This document shows positions 33,031 through 41,701 of a stretch of DNA of 64,000 nucleotides, in pieces. The stretch spans positions 119,580 to 183,579 of the forward strand of contig JABGYD010000069.1 in assembly GCA_018675425.1 (NCBI GenBank), written 5' to 3'. A program made the position numbers and the translations under genes. The notes under the pieces were generated by a model. The model saw only the letters and a program-made list of their open reading frames with translations. It was not told the origin of the DNA and searched no databases. Numbering within the stretch: the stretch's first letter is position 1; every line of letters starts with the position of its first letter. Source of the stretch: Kordiimonadaceae bacterium (GTDB taxonomy: Bacteria > Pseudomonadota > Alphaproteobacteria > Sphingomonadales > Emcibacteraceae).

Positions 33031-34479
33031 CTATTTCCACTTCGGGGCTGTTAAACGTCTTTTTCCATCTAGTGTTTTAGGGACATTGTCTATGTCTAGA
33101 TCCGAACGATCCCACAATTGACAAGTAACTACCTTATGTTTTTGGTCAAGCCCTTCACAGTAATTAGTATATTTACAAACCCTAACTTCTTTACCTCGTC
33201 CTTTTCTTACTTTCCTAAACCAGTCTGGATCAGCTAATGATTGGCGAGCCATAGCAATTATATCCGCTTTACCTGATGTTAATATTTCTTCAGCTTGCTC
33301 ATATCCGTGAATACCACCTGCCACAATCACCGGAATATCGTAACCAGCATTGCGAATTGATTTTCTTATCTCATTTGCTGGCTCAACATTACGACCGTAT
33401 GGGCCTTTTTTATCAGACATAAATTGGGGCATACATTCATATCCACTTGGGCCGGTGTAGGGGTATACTGCTGCACCAACTTTTGGTTGCAGAGCATCTT
33501 CAAATTTACCTCCCCTTGAAAGAGAAATAAAATCCATTCCCGCACTGGCAAACTGCTCCCCAAAATAACAAGTATCTTCGAGGGTATTTCCATTTTCAAT
33601 GCAATCTTCAGATAAAAACCGACACCCTAAAATGAAGTTATCGCCCACACGTTCACGAACTGCTTTATATACCTCTAAAGGAAGACGAGCCCTATTCTCT
33701 TTATTGCCTCCGTAACCATCAGCCCGCGTATTTCTAACTGATAAGAATGAAGCCATTGTATAAGCATGAGCATAATGCAATTCCACGCCATCAAACCCTG
33801 CATCCTTTGCGCGCTTTGCTGCATCTGAAAATAGTTGAGGCAGTATTTCTGGAAGTTCATTTATACGCTGAAGTTCTGTATCAGTTACTCTATCACGGTG
33901 ACCCAGGTTTAAAGATTCAAGTTCACGGATACTCAAGACACCACTCAGTTCTTCGTCAGCTAACAACAAAAGATGATCCCTAATCTCATCTTCTGACCAA
34001 CTTTCTGCTTTTAATGCAACCCTGTGGTTTTCAGTGACTTTCAAATGGCGTTTGAAATATTTAATAGGATCCGGCCGTCTGTTCATGGCTAAAAAGTCAA
34101 TAATTTGAATAAATAATTTTGTCTTCCCACCACTGGCATCACGCACTGCATCCACAATTTTTTTCAGACCATCAATATATCTGTCATGCCCAATTCTAAG
34201 TAATGGACCAGACGGTATATCCCTTATGCCAGTTGCCTCAACAACTATTGCACCTGGCCTCCCCTCTGCGAACCTCCTATACCACTCAATAACTTCATCA
34301 GTAACTAACCCCTCTTCATTGGAACGCCAAGGGACCATCGCCGGAACCCAACTTCTTTCTTCCAATATTGTTTTACCAATTTTTATAGGTTGAAATAAAA
34401 GAGATTCATCCGCCTCTTCAGCACTCGGCCATCTTCCTGGATTAGGATGATGTTTAATTCGTTCTGTCGGTTTCCACAT
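33031..34479 (-). CDS. NADH:flavin oxidoreductase / old yellow enzyme family
   Basis: The 482-residue protein has an OYE-type FMN TIM barrel. LFQPIKIGKTILEERSWVPAMVPW starts the barrel near residue 29. The active site DGVELHYAHAYTMASFLSVRNTRADGYGG lies near residue 230, with YAHAY in place of the usual HxxH/N pair. IIAMARQSLADPDW closes the phosphate site. A Cys-containing tail follows (CKYTNYC then VTC), reminiscent of the Fe-S-binding linker of 2,4-dienoyl-CoA reductases, but the C-terminal FAD/NAD domain is absent. It follows the aryl-CoA ligase by 15 bp, so reduction of an aryl- or enoyl-CoA intermediate is likely (inference). Exact substrate unknown. Confidence 0.82.
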   Translation of the reverse strand: MWKPTERIKHHPNPGRWPSAEEADESLLFQPIKIGKTILEERSWVPAMVPWRSNEEGLVTDEVIEWYRRFAEGRPGAIVVEATGIRDIPSGPLLRIGHDRYIDGLKKIVDAVRDASGGKTKLFIQIIDFLAMNRRPDPIKYFKRHLKVTENHRVALKAESWSEDEIRDHLLLLADEELSGVLSIRELESLNLGHRDRVTDTELQRINELPEILPQLFSDAAKRAKDAGFDGVELHYAHAYTMASFLSVRNTRADGYGGNKENRARLPLEVYKAVRERVGDNFILGCRFLSEDCIENGNTLEDTCYFGEQFASAGMDFISLSRGGKFEDALQPKVGAAVYPYTGPSGYECMPQFMSDKKGPYGRNVEPANEIRKSIRNAGYDIPVIVAGGIHGYEQAEEILTSGKADIIAMARQSLADPDWFRKVRKGRGKEVRVCKYTNYCEGLDQKHKVVTCQLWDRSDLDIDNVPKTLDGKRRLTAPKWK

Positions 34480-34494
34480 TAATTAATTCCAATT

Positions 34495-36120
34495 TTAATG
34501 ACTGAGTTCTTTTAATTTATTCCTTTGAATTTTACCAGTTTGTGTTTTTGGTAAAGCTTCAACAAATTCTATTTTTCTAGGGTATTTATAGGGTGCTATT
34601 ATTTTTTTTATATAATTTTGAAATTCAATAACAAGCGCCTCCGATGGAATATTCCCGTCTTTTAAAACGATGTAAGCTTTAACAACAAAACCTCTCTCCT
34701 CATTAGGGACGCCGATGACCGCACATTCGGATATTTTTTGATTTGTATAAAGCGCATCTTCCACTTCTGGCCCAGAAATATTATACCCTGAACTAATAAT
34801 CATATCATCACACCGGCTCGTAAAATAAACATAGCCATCTTGATCCATTGAACAGAGATCACCGGTAATATTCCAACCGTTAACCACATAATCTTTTTGA
34901 CGGACATCATCTAAATACTTACAGCCAGTTGGCCCCCTAACAGCGAGGCGACCTATTTCATTCTTACCTATTGGCAAATCATTTAAATCTAAAATACATA
35001 CCTCATAACCATCAATAGCTTTACCAATCGCACCGGGGCGTATGCTTTCGTCAATGGCCGAAATAAACATGTGGGTCATTTCAGTTGAACCAAAAGCATT
35101 AATTAGTTTACCCCCATTTTTTTTGTGCCACTCCTCAAAAATATAAATTGGCAAATGTTCGCCCGAAGAGACAGCCTTTTTTAAACTAGACAAGTCATAG
35201 TGATCATAATCTTTAAGCATTTTTTTATATGCCGTTGGCGCAGTAGCACAAATTGTAGCTTTATATTTCTCAATAGCCGCCATCAGGTCAACAGCGCTTG
35301 TTTTTTCTAATAATATAGTTGTGCCCCCAACATGCAGAGGAAATGCTACAAGCATGCCTAATCCGAATGTAAATGCCATGGGAGGACTGCCAACAAATAA
35401 ATCATTTTCAGTCAGTTTAAGCAACCCCTCTCCCGCACAAATGCACATAGCCATCACATCCCGGTGGAAATGTACAGTTCCTTTAGGTGCGCCAGTTGTT
35501 CCACTTGTAAAGGCAATTAATGCAGGATCATCATGCATAGTAATAACATTTGAAAACTTAACTGGTTTGCTCTGCGCTAGAGTTTGCAGATCACCTTTTA
35601 ATGGCACTTTAGTAATCGCATCAAAAAAACAGATGCTGTTTGTTTGGATAAAATTGGTTTTCGCTACCTCCCCTTTTAAGCGCTCGTCACATAAGATAAA
35701 ATTTATTTCAGCTTTATCTATAATAGTTTTCAATTCTGGGGCACGCAACATGGGCATGGTTGATACAACTATTCCGCCCACTTTGATGATAGCTAGCCAG
35801 CAAGCAACAGCCATTGGGGTGTTGGAGGAACGAAGCAAAACGCGATTACCTTTTTTAACCCCGAAATTATCTTTAAGAAAATGAGCAATCTGATTACTTG
35901 TTTGATAAAGTTTTTTATAAGTCCATTCATTTTCTGGGCTTATAATAGCTTTTTTTTCACTACGCCCCAGCAGGATATTTTTATCAATTAACTCTACCGC
36001 ACAATTTAATTCACCAGAAAATCTTAATTCATTAAAGTTAAACAAGTAATCCGGTTGTTCAGAAATAGTTGGTAAGTTTAGTTTTACAAAATTGTCGCTA
36101 TTTTGATGAGAATTATCCAT
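34495..36120 (-). CDS. Benzoate/2-aminobenzoate-CoA ligase family enzyme
   Basis: The 541-residue ANL-superfamily adenylate-forming enzyme has the P-loop LIAFTSGTTGAPKGTVHFHRD near residue 205, the A5 motif INAFGSTEMTHMF near residue 343, the A7 motif NGWNITGDL near residue 415 and the catalytic Lys in TGKIQRNKL at the end. Overall it resembles benzoate-/2-aminobenzoate-CoA ligases more than acetyl-CoA synthetases. KynA and KynU, encoded divergently, would produce anthranilate, so anthranilate is the best-guess substrate. It starts three bases after the sulfatase stop and is followed by the OYE gene, forming a three-gene operon. Confidence 0.82.
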   Translation of the reverse strand: MDNSHQNSDNFVKLNLPTISEQPDYLFNFNELRFSGELNCAVELIDKNILLGRSEKKAIISPENEWTYKKLYQTSNQIAHFLKDNFGVKKGNRVLLRSSNTPMAVACWLAIIKVGGIVVSTMPMLRAPELKTIIDKAEINFILCDERLKGEVAKTNFIQTNSICFFDAITKVPLKGDLQTLAQSKPVKFSNVITMHDDPALIAFTSGTTGAPKGTVHFHRDVMAMCICAGEGLLKLTENDLFVGSPPMAFTFGLGMLVAFPLHVGGTTILLEKTSAVDLMAAIEKYKATICATAPTAYKKMLKDYDHYDLSSLKKAVSSGEHLPIYIFEEWHKKNGGKLINAFGSTEMTHMFISAIDESIRPGAIGKAIDGYEVCILDLNDLPIGKNEIGRLAVRGPTGCKYLDDVRQKDYVVNGWNITGDLCSMDQDGYVYFTSRCDDMIISSGYNISGPEVEDALYTNQKISECAVIGVPNEERGFVVKAYIVLKDGNIPSEALVIEFQNYIKKIIAPYKYPRKIEFVEALPKTQTGKIQRNKLKELSH

Positions 36121-36123
36121 TTT

Positions 36124-37839
36124 TTAGCGTTTATAATGATCGTTTTTATTGCTATAAGGAACATCGGTATAACCAGACTGTATGACCCCATTCCGTTCAG
36201 CATATTGACCCCATAATTTTATCATCTCATTCAATTTTTCCGTTTCAGAACTTGATAAGTCAATTCGTTCGAATGGATCATTTTTTAAATTATAAAGTTC
36301 CCAACTACCTTTTCCAAATGGCTCATTATTATCAATTATTTTCCAATCATCTTGGCGAATAGCTTTACGGCCAAACAATTCCCATCCCATATATTGCTGA
36401 TCCCCTAAATAACATTCTTTTCCAGTTAAGTAAGGAAGTAATGACCGGCCTTGTAGTGGAAATAAATCACGCCCTCTGTATTCACCTGTAGGATATTCGG
36501 TGCCCGCAACCTCAAGTAACGTTGGAACTATGTCCAATATTGTCATAAAACTGTTATCAAAAGCTGGTTTTTCACCTATTTCAGTTGGCCAAACAACAAA
36601 CGCAGGAACTTTAATTCCCCCCTCACTTGAGAAGGCTTTATGTAATTTATAGGGTGCAGAACTTACACTTGCCCAGCCGGGGCCATATGCAGTGAAGCTT
36701 CCAGGTTTACCTAAGCTTTCGGTATCAGTTGTAAATGTTTCAGGTATCCAAGAGACATTATCTTCGATGTGATAAGGATCATTACCATCTGCACCATTGT
36801 CTGACATGAATATAATTATGGTATTTTCTAGTTTACCAGAACTTCGTAAATTCTCAACAATACGGTTAATATTAAAATCCATGGCCTCGACCATTGCCGC
36901 ATATACGGCCATGTTTTTAGCTTCTTTTTGCTTTTGTATATCACTCAAATCACCCCAATTAGCCGCCATTGGGGAACGAGGAAAGTCTTCGGGTATTTTA
37001 GAAATTAGACCCAGTTTGAGCATTTTTTGCAACCGCTCGTGCATAATTTCATCGTAGCCACCATCATAACGTCCCTCATATTTTTCGATAAAATTGTCTG
37101 GTGCCTGTAATGGCCAATGTGGCGCCGTATATGATGCAAACGCAAAAAATGGCTTGTCATCTTCAATGTTATTCAAATATTCCAACATTTTATCAGTATA
37201 AGTTTTAGTAGAATAAAAATCTTCTGGCAAAATAGTTTCTTTACCATTTTCAAGATAAATGGTGGTTGGTATTTTACTAGAAGCTGCCAAATTTGAATAA
37301 TGACTGGAAGTCCCACGTGGCATAATATAAGTTTGCTCAAATCCTCGACTGTGGGGCACCTGATCATCCTCTAGGCCTAAATGCCACTTACCTGTCATTA
37401 TAGTATGGTAGCCAGCATCTTGTAAAAGTTCTGCAATAGATGCTACTCGAAAATTAAGATATCCCTCATACCCAACCTGAACACTACCCAAACCAACACC
37501 TTCGGAATCAAAACCACCAAGACCTGAAAGGTGGTTATCTACGCCCGAAAGAAGCATTGAGCGGGTAAATGAACAAATAGGGGCAGAGTAAAAGTTGGAA
37601 AACTTAACACCTTGATTAGCTAAAGTGTCTAGTGTTGGCGTGGCTATCTCTCCACCGTAAACCCCTAGATCAGAATATCCTAGGTCATCAGCAACAATTA
37701 ATAAAATATTTGGAGTATTTTCTTTCTGACTAACAAGTTCATCAGTACCCTCATTGAATGAGCAGGCCGTCATACTAGAAAAGAATATTATCAATAATAA
37801 AACTAATATGGGGTGAGTTTGACCAGTTTTTTCAAACAC
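36124..37839 (-). CDS. Lipoprotein sulfatase with unusual CSFTR signature
   Basis: The 571-residue arylsulfatase-like protein has metal ligands LLIVADDLGYSDLG near residue 55 and FMSDNGADG near residue 345. The nucleophile region reads PICSFTRSMLLSG near residue 98, where arylsulfatases of the P. aeruginosa AtsA type have CSPTRSMLLTG. The Pro/Ala needed for formylglycine maturation is Phe (TTT codon). The N-terminus has a hydrophobic stretch and lipobox-like SMTAC. The track start (TTG, 37851) lies within the TTGGAG Shine-Dalgarno. A GTG at 37839, six bases after GGAG, is better and gives MFEKTGQTHPILVLL. Predicted to be a membrane-anchored periplasmic enzyme; substrate unknown. Confidence 0.85.
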   Translation of the reverse strand: MFEKTGQTHPILVLLLIIFFSSMTACSFNEGTDELVSQKENTPNILLIVADDLGYSDLGVYGGEIATPTLDTLANQGVKFSNFYSAPICSFTRSMLLSGVDNHLSGLGGFDSEGVGLGSVQVGYEGYLNFRVASIAELLQDAGYHTIMTGKWHLGLEDDQVPHSRGFEQTYIMPRGTSSHYSNLAASSKIPTTIYLENGKETILPEDFYSTKTYTDKMLEYLNNIEDDKPFFAFASYTAPHWPLQAPDNFIEKYEGRYDGGYDEIMHERLQKMLKLGLISKIPEDFPRSPMAANWGDLSDIQKQKEAKNMAVYAAMVEAMDFNINRIVENLRSSGKLENTIIIFMSDNGADGNDPYHIEDNVSWIPETFTTDTESLGKPGSFTAYGPGWASVSSAPYKLHKAFSSEGGIKVPAFVVWPTEIGEKPAFDNSFMTILDIVPTLLEVAGTEYPTGEYRGRDLFPLQGRSLLPYLTGKECYLGDQQYMGWELFGRKAIRQDDWKIIDNNEPFGKGSWELYNLKNDPFERIDLSSSETEKLNEMIKLWGQYAERNGVIQSGYTDVPYSNKNDHYKR

Positions 37840-37910
37840 AATATTCTCCAAAATTATCTAATAGTGAACACGAACATTTTTATCGTATTATTATATATAT
37901 GTAAATATAA

Positions 37911-37993: not shown

Positions 37994-38902
37994 GTGACAA
38001 GTAAAATAAAAAGTTTTATTGAAGATGGAATTGAAACCTACGAAGCTAATATCGACGGTGAAAAAATCATATGGGATAAAGGCCTGTCGTACAGTAAGCA
38101 CCTTCAAACTAAAACACTACTTGCTTGCCAAATTCCAGTATCTGAAGAACCAGAAGAATTAATGTTTATTATTGTACATCAATCAATGGAGTTATGGATA
38201 AAACAGTGTATCCACGAAATAAACTTAATCATAAAGTTCATTGGGACTAACCAATTAAATAGGGCATATAAGTCTCTTGACCGTATTGCCGTGATTTTGC
38301 GCCATATGATTAATTCCTGGGAAGTATTAGCCACATTAACACCAAATGATTTCTTGACATTTAGGCCTTATTTACAGAAAGCATCAGGTTTTCAATCTTA
38401 TCAATACAGAGAGTTAGAATTTTTATTAGGCAATAAAAAGAAAGATCTTATTTTGGTTCATAAAGACGATAAAGCCGTATACGACCACTTAGAAGACGTA
38501 CTAAATGCTCCATCACTTTATGATGTTACCTTAAAATTATTAGCTGACCGCGGGTTCAACATTCCAAGTAAAATTTTAGATCGTGATTTTTCTCAAGCAT
38601 ATGTTCCAGCGCCTGAAATTGAAGAAATTTGGCGTGAAATCTATTCAGAAGCCGATAATATGTGGGATCTATATACATTAGGTGAAAAAATCACAGCCCT
38701 CGAGTATTATTTTCAAGAATGGCGTTTTAAACACATGAAAACCGTTTCACGTGTTATTGGATATAAAAAAGGAACAGCAGGCTCTGCAGGAGTAGCTTAT
38801 CTAGTGAAGGCACTGGATAATAGTTTTTTTCCTGAACTTTGGTCAATGAGATCACAAATGACTTCACCTGAAGATCAACAATCAGATAAGTGCCCAATAT
38901 AA
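37994..38902 (+). CDS. kynA: Tryptophan 2,3-dioxygenase
   Basis: The 302-residue heme dioxygenase has the bacterial TDO substrate/heme region MFIIVHQSMELWIKQCIHEI near residue 55, QSYQYRELEFLLGN near residue 135 and the GTAGSAGVAYL loop (GTGGS equivalent) near residue 260. It opens the indole ring of L-tryptophan to N-formylkynurenine. It starts with GTG, preceded by AAAGGG. The next gene, kynU, overlaps its stop. No kynurenine formamidase is in the window. Confidence 0.95.
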   Translation: MTSKIKSFIEDGIETYEANIDGEKIIWDKGLSYSKHLQTKTLLACQIPVSEEPEELMFIIVHQSMELWIKQCIHEINLIIKFIGTNQLNRAYKSLDRIAVILRHMINSWEVLATLTPNDFLTFRPYLQKASGFQSYQYRELEFLLGNKKKDLILVHKDDKAVYDHLEDVLNAPSLYDVTLKLLADRGFNIPSKILDRDFSQAYVPAPEIEEIWREIYSEADNMWDLYTLGEKITALEYYFQEWRFKHMKTVSRVIGYKKGTAGSAGVAYLVKALDNSFFPELWSMRSQMTSPEDQQSDKCPI

Positions 38903-40140
38903 TGACTATATCTAAGAATGAGATTCAGAAGATGGATCGCGAAGATCCAATCAGAGAATTTAAAGAAAAATTTCACTTGCCCAAGGGTATAATTTATATG
39001 GATGGTAATTCTCTTGGAGCATTACCCATAGCCACTCAAAAAGTTATTAGTGATACAGTTAGTAATGAGTGGGGTGACGGACTAATTACATCTTGGCTAG
39101 ATGCTAATTGGGTAAATTCCCCTGAGAGGATTGGAAACAAAATTGCGTCGTGCATTGGCGCCAAGGATGGCGAAGTGACAGTTTGCGATTCTACATCCGT
39201 CAACCTCTTTAAGATCCTTGTTGCTGCATTGCAAATTAACAATAGCCGTGAGGTTATTTTATCAGAACAGGGAAACTTCCCTACAGATCTTTATATAATG
39301 GACGGCATTAAAAAATTATTTAAAAATAAAATTGAAACAAAAATAGTAGATCCAAAAAAATTACTAGACGCCCTTGATGAAAATGTTTCCGTACTTCTTC
39401 TAACACAAGTTCATTATAAGACGGGACTTATTAAAGACATGGAAAAAATCACAAAAAAAGCCCATGAAGTAGGAGCGTTAATAGTTTGGGATCTTAGTCA
39501 TTCTGCGGGGTCTATTCCGCTAGATCTTAATGGGTGTAATGTTGATTTTGCAACTGGTTGTGGATATAAATTTTTAAATGGGGGACCTGGTGCCCCTGCA
39601 TTTTTATTTGCTGCAAGCCGCCATCATACAAAATGTGTCCCTGTATTATCTGGCTGGTTTGGCCATTCAAATCCCTTCGAGTTTACAGATGACTATTTTC
39701 CAGCTCAAGATGTAAGAATGTTTTTATCTGGAACACCACCTGTTCTTGGTTTGAAAGCACTTGAGGTTGGTGTTGATATTTTTTGTTCTGCGGATATAGA
39801 AAAATTAAGAGATAAAGCAAAGAAGTTAGGAGCATTATTTATTAAATTATTAAATGAAAAGTGTAGCCAATATGAATTTGAAATAATAAGCCCTATCGAA
39901 GATAATCTTCGTGGAGGTCATGTTTCGCTTAGTCACAAAAATGGATACGCCATCATGCAAGCCGTCAAGGAAAAAGGGCTTATTGGGGACTTCAGGGCCC
40001 CGTCAGTATTGAGATTTGGTATCACACCTCTTTATATGACTTACGAAAACATTTTTGAAGCAATAGAGATTATTAGTAAAGTAATGGATAGTAAAGAATG
40101 GGATAATCCAGAATATATGGTTCGTGCAGAAGTTACGTAA
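38902..40140 (+). CDS. kynU: Kynureninase
   Basis: The 412-residue fold-type-I PLP enzyme has MDGNSLGALP near the start, the Asp-containing IVWDLSHSAGSIPLDL near residue 200 and the PLP lysine in ATGCGYKFLNGGPGAPAFLF near residue 222. It cleaves kynurenine to anthranilate and alanine. I use the ATG at 38902, whose first base is the last base of the kynA stop (TAATG). The track's GTG at 38890 would add four residues and overlap kynA more deeply. Anthranilate would feed the divergent aryl-CoA ligase. Confidence 0.95.
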   Translation: MTISKNEIQKMDREDPIREFKEKFHLPKGIIYMDGNSLGALPIATQKVISDTVSNEWGDGLITSWLDANWVNSPERIGNKIASCIGAKDGEVTVCDSTSVNLFKILVAALQINNSREVILSEQGNFPTDLYIMDGIKKLFKNKIETKIVDPKKLLDALDENVSVLLLTQVHYKTGLIKDMEKITKKAHEVGALIVWDLSHSAGSIPLDLNGCNVDFATGCGYKFLNGGPGAPAFLFAASRHHTKCVPVLSGWFGHSNPFEFTDDYFPAQDVRMFLSGTPPVLGLKALEVGVDIFCSADIEKLRDKAKKLGALFIKLLNEKCSQYEFEIISPIEDNLRGGHVSLSHKNGYAIMQAVKEKGLIGDFRAPSVLRFGITPLYMTYENIFEAIEIISKVMDSKEWDNPEYMVRAEVT

Positions 40141-40351: not shown

Positions 40352-41701
40352 ATGACTGCAGTCAGATCACAATTTAACTCACGTATTGGGTTTATTATGG
40401 CAGCGGCAGGTTCCGCAGTCGGATTGGGTAATATTTGGGGTTTCCCAACCCAAGTTGCTAGCAATGGCGGTGCTGCTTTTGTTCTAGTCTATCTAATACT
40501 TACCTTCTTATTAGCATACCCAGTCCTTATCGTCGAAATGACGATAGGACGTTATGCTCAATCAAATGTTGTTTCAGCTCTTAGTAAGCTCTCCGATAAC
40601 AAAATAGCCGCTAATTTTGGCTACGGTATTGGGCTATACGCAATCATCGTTGCCTGTCTAATGTTAAGTTTTTATGCAATTATATCTGGATGGTTATTTG
40701 CCCACTTGATTGGTTCTCTCAGTTCAATAATTGGATTTCCTGATTTTGAAACCTGGCTGTATGAAAATACTGTTAGTAGGAATTTAATTTTCGCTGCAAT
40801 ATTTGCAACACTTACTATTTACGTCGTAGCAAAGGGTATCGAAAAAGGTATTGAAAAGTGGTCAAAAACTTTAATGCCTATTTTATTGATTATCCTGGTA
40901 TTGCTTGCAGGCTACACATTAACATTGCCAGGGGCTCTGGCAGGCGTGCGTGTTTACCTTCTTCCAGATTTTTCTAGTCTTGCAAATCCGAGCATATACA
41001 TAAATGCGCTCGGCCAATCATTTTTTTCCCTGTCGTTGGGGATTGGTGGAATGATTGTTTATGGATCATATTTAAGTAAGAATGAAAGCATCCCAAAAAT
41101 TGGCGCTACGGTAGCATTGTTTGATGTGTTAATAGCTTTCTTAGCGGGTTTATTGATCATACCAGCCCTTTATGCGGCGCTACATTATGGAGCAAATATA
41201 TATGATGCTAATGGTCTTCTGACATCAGGTGAAAGTCTAATTTTTGAAGTTCTACCAATTTTGTTTGACATAATAGGAACTTCAGGAATTATTGTTTCTA
41301 TCTTATTCTTTTTCTTATTAAGTATTGCAGCCCTAACCTCCGCTATTTCAATTTTGGAAGTGCCGGTTTCACTAGTTATAGAAACTCAAAACTTAACAAG
41401 AAGAAAAGCAACCCTTTTAACTGGTGGAGCGGTATTTTGTGTTAGCGCAATAACTATAATAAACTTTGATATTCTTTTTCCACTAATTCTAGATTTCACA
41501 ACCAAATACAGCATAACTCTAATCAGTGCAATATTCTGTATTTATGTTGGATGGATATGGAAAAGAACCAATCTATTAAAAGAACTTCAGAGAGGAAGTT
41601 CAGATATATCAAATTCCTTATTTTGGAAAATTTGGCCTAATTATGTTAAATTTGTTTGCCCAGTTTTAATCGCACTTATTTTTACACAATTTTTTGTATA
41701 G
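40352..41701 (+). CDS. SNF-family Na+-dependent amino-acid transporter
   Basis: The 449-residue protein is a neurotransmitter:sodium symporter homologue with eleven or so helices, the typical bacterial length. Helix 1 carries GSAVGLGNIWGFPTQVASNGGAAFVLVY, the Na+/substrate-binding unwound region. SFFSLSLGIGGMIVYGSYL near residue 225 corresponds to helix 6. Bacterial members include LeuT and the tryptophan transporter TnaT. Placed after kynA-kynU, import of tryptophan or kynurenine is the likely role (inference). AAGGA lies upstream of the ATG. Confidence 0.9.
   Translation: MTAVRSQFNSRIGFIMAAAGSAVGLGNIWGFPTQVASNGGAAFVLVYLILTFLLAYPVLIVEMTIGRYAQSNVVSALSKLSDNKIAANFGYGIGLYAIIVACLMLSFYAIISGWLFAHLIGSLSSIIGFPDFETWLYENTVSRNLIFAAIFATLTIYVVAKGIEKGIEKWSKTLMPILLIILVLLAGYTLTLPGALAGVRVYLLPDFSSLANPSIYINALGQSFFSLSLGIGGMIVYGSYLSKNESIPKIGATVALFDVLIAFLAGLLIIPALYAALHYGANIYDANGLLTSGESLIFEVLPILFDIIGTSGIIVSILFFFLLSIAALTSAISILEVPVSLVIETQNLTRRKATLLTGGAVFCVSAITIINFDILFPLILDFTTKYSITLISAIFCIYVGWIWKRTNLLKELQRGSSDISNSLFWKIWPNYVKFVCPVLIALIFTQFFV

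Follow-up and report, generated by a model that had tools for sequence, protein, structure and literature searches.

The locus described here raises the question of what becomes of a Cys-type sulfatase whose maturation signature has lost the residue expected at its third position. The published sulfatase signature demands Pro or Ala there (PMC5066984), and the initial annotation of the window, a 64-kb stretch of a contig from a Kordiimonadaceae bacterium, had reported CSFTR in place of C-x-P/A-x-R. The minus strand does read TGT TCA TTT ACC CGC (CSFTR; 37575-37561) within an unbroken ORF, and the Phe codon, TTT at 37569-37567, is two base changes away from every CCN Pro codon, in agreement with the annotation's count of at least two. 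The ORF list gives the gene as 36124-37851 on the minus strand, with a TTG start at 37851 and a 575-aa product. Since a GTG at 37839 is preceded by GGAG, this is the likely start, and a 571-aa product (36124..37839) is more likely than the longer one. The N-terminus reads as a hydrophobic stretch followed by SMTAC (Cys26), which is plausibly a lipobox and would make the sulfatase a lipoprotein.

A PF00884 match above cut-off (195 bits) makes the product an S1 sulfatase, and the best match to a solved protein and Foldseek place it with the PAS-type arylsulfatases. The nearest solved protein is Pseudomonas aeruginosa AtsA/PAS (1HDH, 487 bits), with which it shares about 41% identity, the fold, the Ca- and sulfate-binding residues and the Cys precursor of the nucleophile. 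It differs from that enzyme in having CSFTR instead of CSPTR, in being a predicted lipoprotein and in being encoded among genes for tryptophan catabolism. The equivalents of PAS D13, D14, C51, R55, K113, H115, H211, D317, N318 and K375 are all kept; these include every Ca and sulfate ligand by which a PAS-like S1 enzyme is recognized, and only the equivalent of Pro53 is altered among the active-site and Ca residues examined, which leaves the protein outside the [CS]-x-[PA]-x-R maturation signature. An AlphaFold model of moderate confidence (mean pLDDT 64), which served for fold assignment only, gave PAS structures as its eight best Foldseek matches (TMq 0.76-0.78) and has CSFTR opening a helix (89-98), which is its expected place. 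The codon composition of the gene resembles that of its neighbors. By these comparisons the protein is a full-length PAS-type sulfatase of ordinary fold, and the earlier remark that it is not obviously decaying holds.

Phe at this position is exceptional. In an alignment of 4058 sulfatases the position is Pro in 87% and Ala in 369 sequences (9%), with each other residue below 1% (PMC5066984). In the genus, the 113 Cys-type sulfatases examined have Pro in 100 cases, Ser in 5, Ala in 5 and Val, Ile and Phe in one each, the Ile and Val proteins being independent losses of Pro. Of 38 PAS-like proteins compared within the order, just two lack Pro, namely the CSFTR protein and a CSITR sulfatase from a second congener that lacks the formylglycine-generating enzyme (FGE). 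The suggestion that CxFxR might define a clade did not survive pattern surveys of the class (385 genomes) and the order (401 genomes), which found no further sulfatase-like CxFxR. The order survey returned 27 pattern matches in 25 genomes, judged from the matched letters alone, and five matches in the genus share the near-identical text TGTTC.TT.AC.AG...GT.ATTTC.GG, which by reading is not a sulfatase signature. In a tree the CSFTR protein stands alone on a branch of 1.11 changes per column; its sister group (92/89) is a clade of the genus whose genes adjoin SNF transporters. No orthologue was found, and selection on so long and solitary a branch is not measurable. A scan of genome contigs with the protein returned only sulfatases of 27-40% identity, mostly from Verrucomicrobia and Planctomycetes, and a scan of viral contigs returned no relatives. 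As far as these surveys reach, CSFTR is a rare singleton variant. Two Planctomycetaceae sulfatases have the non-Pro signatures CETSR and CETTR with the other catalytic residues kept, and a Ser-type PAS-like sulfatase from a Methylococcaceae genome has STPAR and an Asp in place of PAS His115.

The initial annotation had proposed a search of the genome for FGE or anSME, and neither was found. The host genome (2.2 Mb, 99.6% complete) encodes seven PF00884 proteins, all Cys-type, with the motifs CSFTR, CSPTR (twice), CSPSR, CTPSR, CMPAR and CAPSR. A search for the FGE domain (PF03781) gave zero candidates in this genome, and a search with the FGE protein of a congener gave nothing, so the host has no detected FGE with the Cu-binding Cys pair. 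The same PF03781 search gives no match in Escherichia coli. No host protein scored above the anSME cut-off (TIGR03942); a single weak radical-SAM match was rejected, being below cut-off and reading as MoaA. A COX1/COX2 pair encoded within the window indicates that the host is an aerobe, and lack of oxygen thus does not explain the missing FGE.

The motif is real and rare and the fold ordinary, but the main point of the case is its setting in a genus nearly devoid of FGE. PF03781 proteins occur in four of its 14 genomes, and only that of G013 has the catalytic Cys pair (CAANFC), located where FGE has its two Cu-binding cysteines, which form a bis-thiolate Cu site (PMC12123546). G013 has both FGE and Pro in the motif, but it is a single case. 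The PF03781 proteins of G002, G004 and G008 were rejected as FGE for want of the pair; at its position they read GGRGPL, GGAFWD, GGGYGN, GGSFGA, GMSYMG or GGGVGA. No protein of the 14 genomes reached the anSME cut-off (best score 115 bits, in G009, against 349). Nevertheless, 13 of the genomes together encode 113 Cys-type and no Ser-type sulfatases, most with CxPxR intact, and the 12 genomes that have classical sulfatases but no FGE contain 3-32 apiece. Since 13 of the 14 genomes lack a Cys-pair FGE and most are 90-99% complete, gaps in the assemblies are hard to blame. Cys-pair FGE is present in other genera of the order, adjoining the sulfatase of its genome in one instance (G017), so loss of FGE in the genus is the simplest reading of these distributions. 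The proposal that the CSFTR enzyme might be matured unusually therefore stands insofar as its host has no detectable FGE or anSME, but unusual or absent maturation would be a trait of the genus and not of this enzyme alone.

The gene neighborhood points to the kind of substrate. The sulfatase gene is followed on the minus strand, in an operon-like order, by genes for an AMP-binding acyl/aryl-CoA ligase resembling benzoate-CoA ligase (34495..36120), which starts 3 bp past the sulfatase stop, and for an Old-yellow-enzyme-type FMN oxidoreductase with the OYE domain only (33031..34479). Diverging from it on the plus strand are a tryptophan 2,3-dioxygenase (TDO)-like gene (37994..38902; TIGR03036 at 330 bits, below the cut-off of 390.7), a kynureninase gene (38890..40140; TIGR01814 above cut-off) and a gene for a Na+-dependent SNF/NSS-family transporter (40352..41701). 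CSPTR paralogues lie within kynurenine gene runs at four congeneric loci, one in the order kynureninase-RidA-3HAO-SNF (L100) and three within aldehyde dehydrogenase-RidA-3HAO-amidohydrolase-TDO (L103, L104 and L105), and four other relatives in the genus (L102, L106, L109 and L113) adjoin SNF transporters. The recurrence of PAS-type sulfatases in tryptophan/kynurenine (3-hydroxyanthranilate) runs and beside SNF genes suggests sulfated aromatic amino-acid catabolites and points to a tryptophan/kynurenine-type or other aromatic amino-acid compound as the substrate, the exact identity of which we infer from context.

The explanation that we favor, although it falls somewhat short of an even chance, is that the protein is an exported arylsulfatase that works despite its Phe in an FGE-less genus. 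It would desulfate an aromatic compound, the product of which may feed the neighboring tryptophan/kynurenine-type catabolic genes. Because the genus is almost without FGE yet rich in Cys-type sulfatases, the preference of FGE is the wrong yardstick for CSFTR; once FGE had been lost, Pro would no longer have been demanded by that enzyme and Phe could have been tolerated. The Cys would most likely still be converted to formylglycine, probably by an activity independent of FGE and anSME like that in E. coli, where a third, unidentified formylglycine-forming system is suspected (PMC8379841; PMC6189696). The two cases share Cys-type sulfatases in an FGE-less organism; that of the genus is one of comparative genomics only, with more than 100 sulfatases and no anSME above cut-off. 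That FGE loss relaxed the Pro requirement is offered as a hypothesis only, since motifs with neither Pro nor Ala are not significantly enriched in the genus (8 of 113 versus about 159 of 4058 in the published survey, p=0.14; PMC5066984) and since Pro to Leu at the equivalent position of mouse iduronate sulfatase nearly abolishes activity (0.04 versus 4.72), albeit in an FGE-dependent host and with a structural effect also allowed by the authors (PMC10185571). Retention of Pro in 100 of the 113 sulfatases counts against the favored explanation, as something still favors Pro, and so does the long branch without an orthologue; the independent change to Ile in a second FGE-less congener speaks for it. 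A more specific version, namely that the genus, after losing FGE, kept a working formylglycine-forming system distinct from both FGE and anSME and without a strict requirement for Pro, with the CSFTR and CSITR proteins as natural substrates, is possible but on the doubtful side.

An alternative is that the enzyme works without formylglycine, and that the Cys in its unmodified state, or a water that it positions, supports slow but useful hydrolysis of sulfate or phosphate esters. This would agree with the lack of FGE and anSME in the host, and the choline sulfatase of E. meliloti (Ensifer) illustrates that turnover in this fold is possible with the Cys left unmodified, being in that form a slow multiple-turnover enzyme (kcat on aryl sulfates about 0.04 s-1; PMC6189696). 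That enzyme has CxPxR, however, and its host a putative FGE; moreover, the same chemistry would have to apply to more than 100 sulfatases of the genus, in which CxPxR is conserved though nothing would read it, and we consider this alternative unlikely. It is likewise unlikely, if worth keeping in mind, that the protein is a homologue that has lost activity or entered early decay. A near-invariant motif position is broken, the branch is long and without a detected orthologue, and the mouse Pro to Leu variant is nearly dead (PMC10185571), but the intact length, the other catalytic residues, the neighbor-like codon composition and the 3-bp spacing to the next gene of the operon all speak for a gene in use.

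PAS-type enzymes are promiscuous, and a different chemistry, with the protein acting as a phosphonate or phosphodiester hydrolase or as a binding protein, had been raised at the outset. This idea gained no specific support. Both the residues and the gene context suit an arylsulfatase; every top match is a PAS enzyme, the PehA model scores far below cut-off, and the neighbors scanned include aromatic catabolism and no phosphorus genes, making such a role very improbable. Nearly as hard to credit is an FGE that tolerates Phe and is either absent from the assemblies or too divergent for the search. All congener genomes but one are drafts, but the near-complete host yields no PF03781 protein, the shortfall recurs in 13 of 14 genomes, and the same search recovers FGE in G013 and in other genera. 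Least probable of all is that a Pro codon was misread in sequencing or assembly; CSFTR is a singleton known from an assembly alone, but an error would have to comprise two adjacent substitutions without damage to the frame, and the congener's Ile variant arose independently.

The way in which E. coli, which has no FGE, forms formylglycine is a long-standing puzzle. The genus, in which a genome can encode as many as 32 sulfatases, FGE occurs in a single member and no anSME was detected, offers a natural comparison set for FGE-independent activity, and the CSFTR enzyme is a ready probe of the sequence requirements of that activity. If a system other than FGE and anSME does operate, the CSFTR and CSITR proteins would expose its different specificity and the genomes of the genus could be mined for the missing enzyme. 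Among the sulfatase-rich congeners, G002, G008 and G004 encode 32, 19 and 13 PF00884 proteins and also harbor the FGE-fold proteins without the catalytic Cys pair (L217-L223). A conceivable maturation candidate is a conserved multihaem cytochrome c-TPR protein of about 740-755 aa encoded near PAS-type sulfatases in G010, G004 and G001 (L109:9019-11235, L110:9867-12113 and L115:4923-7190).
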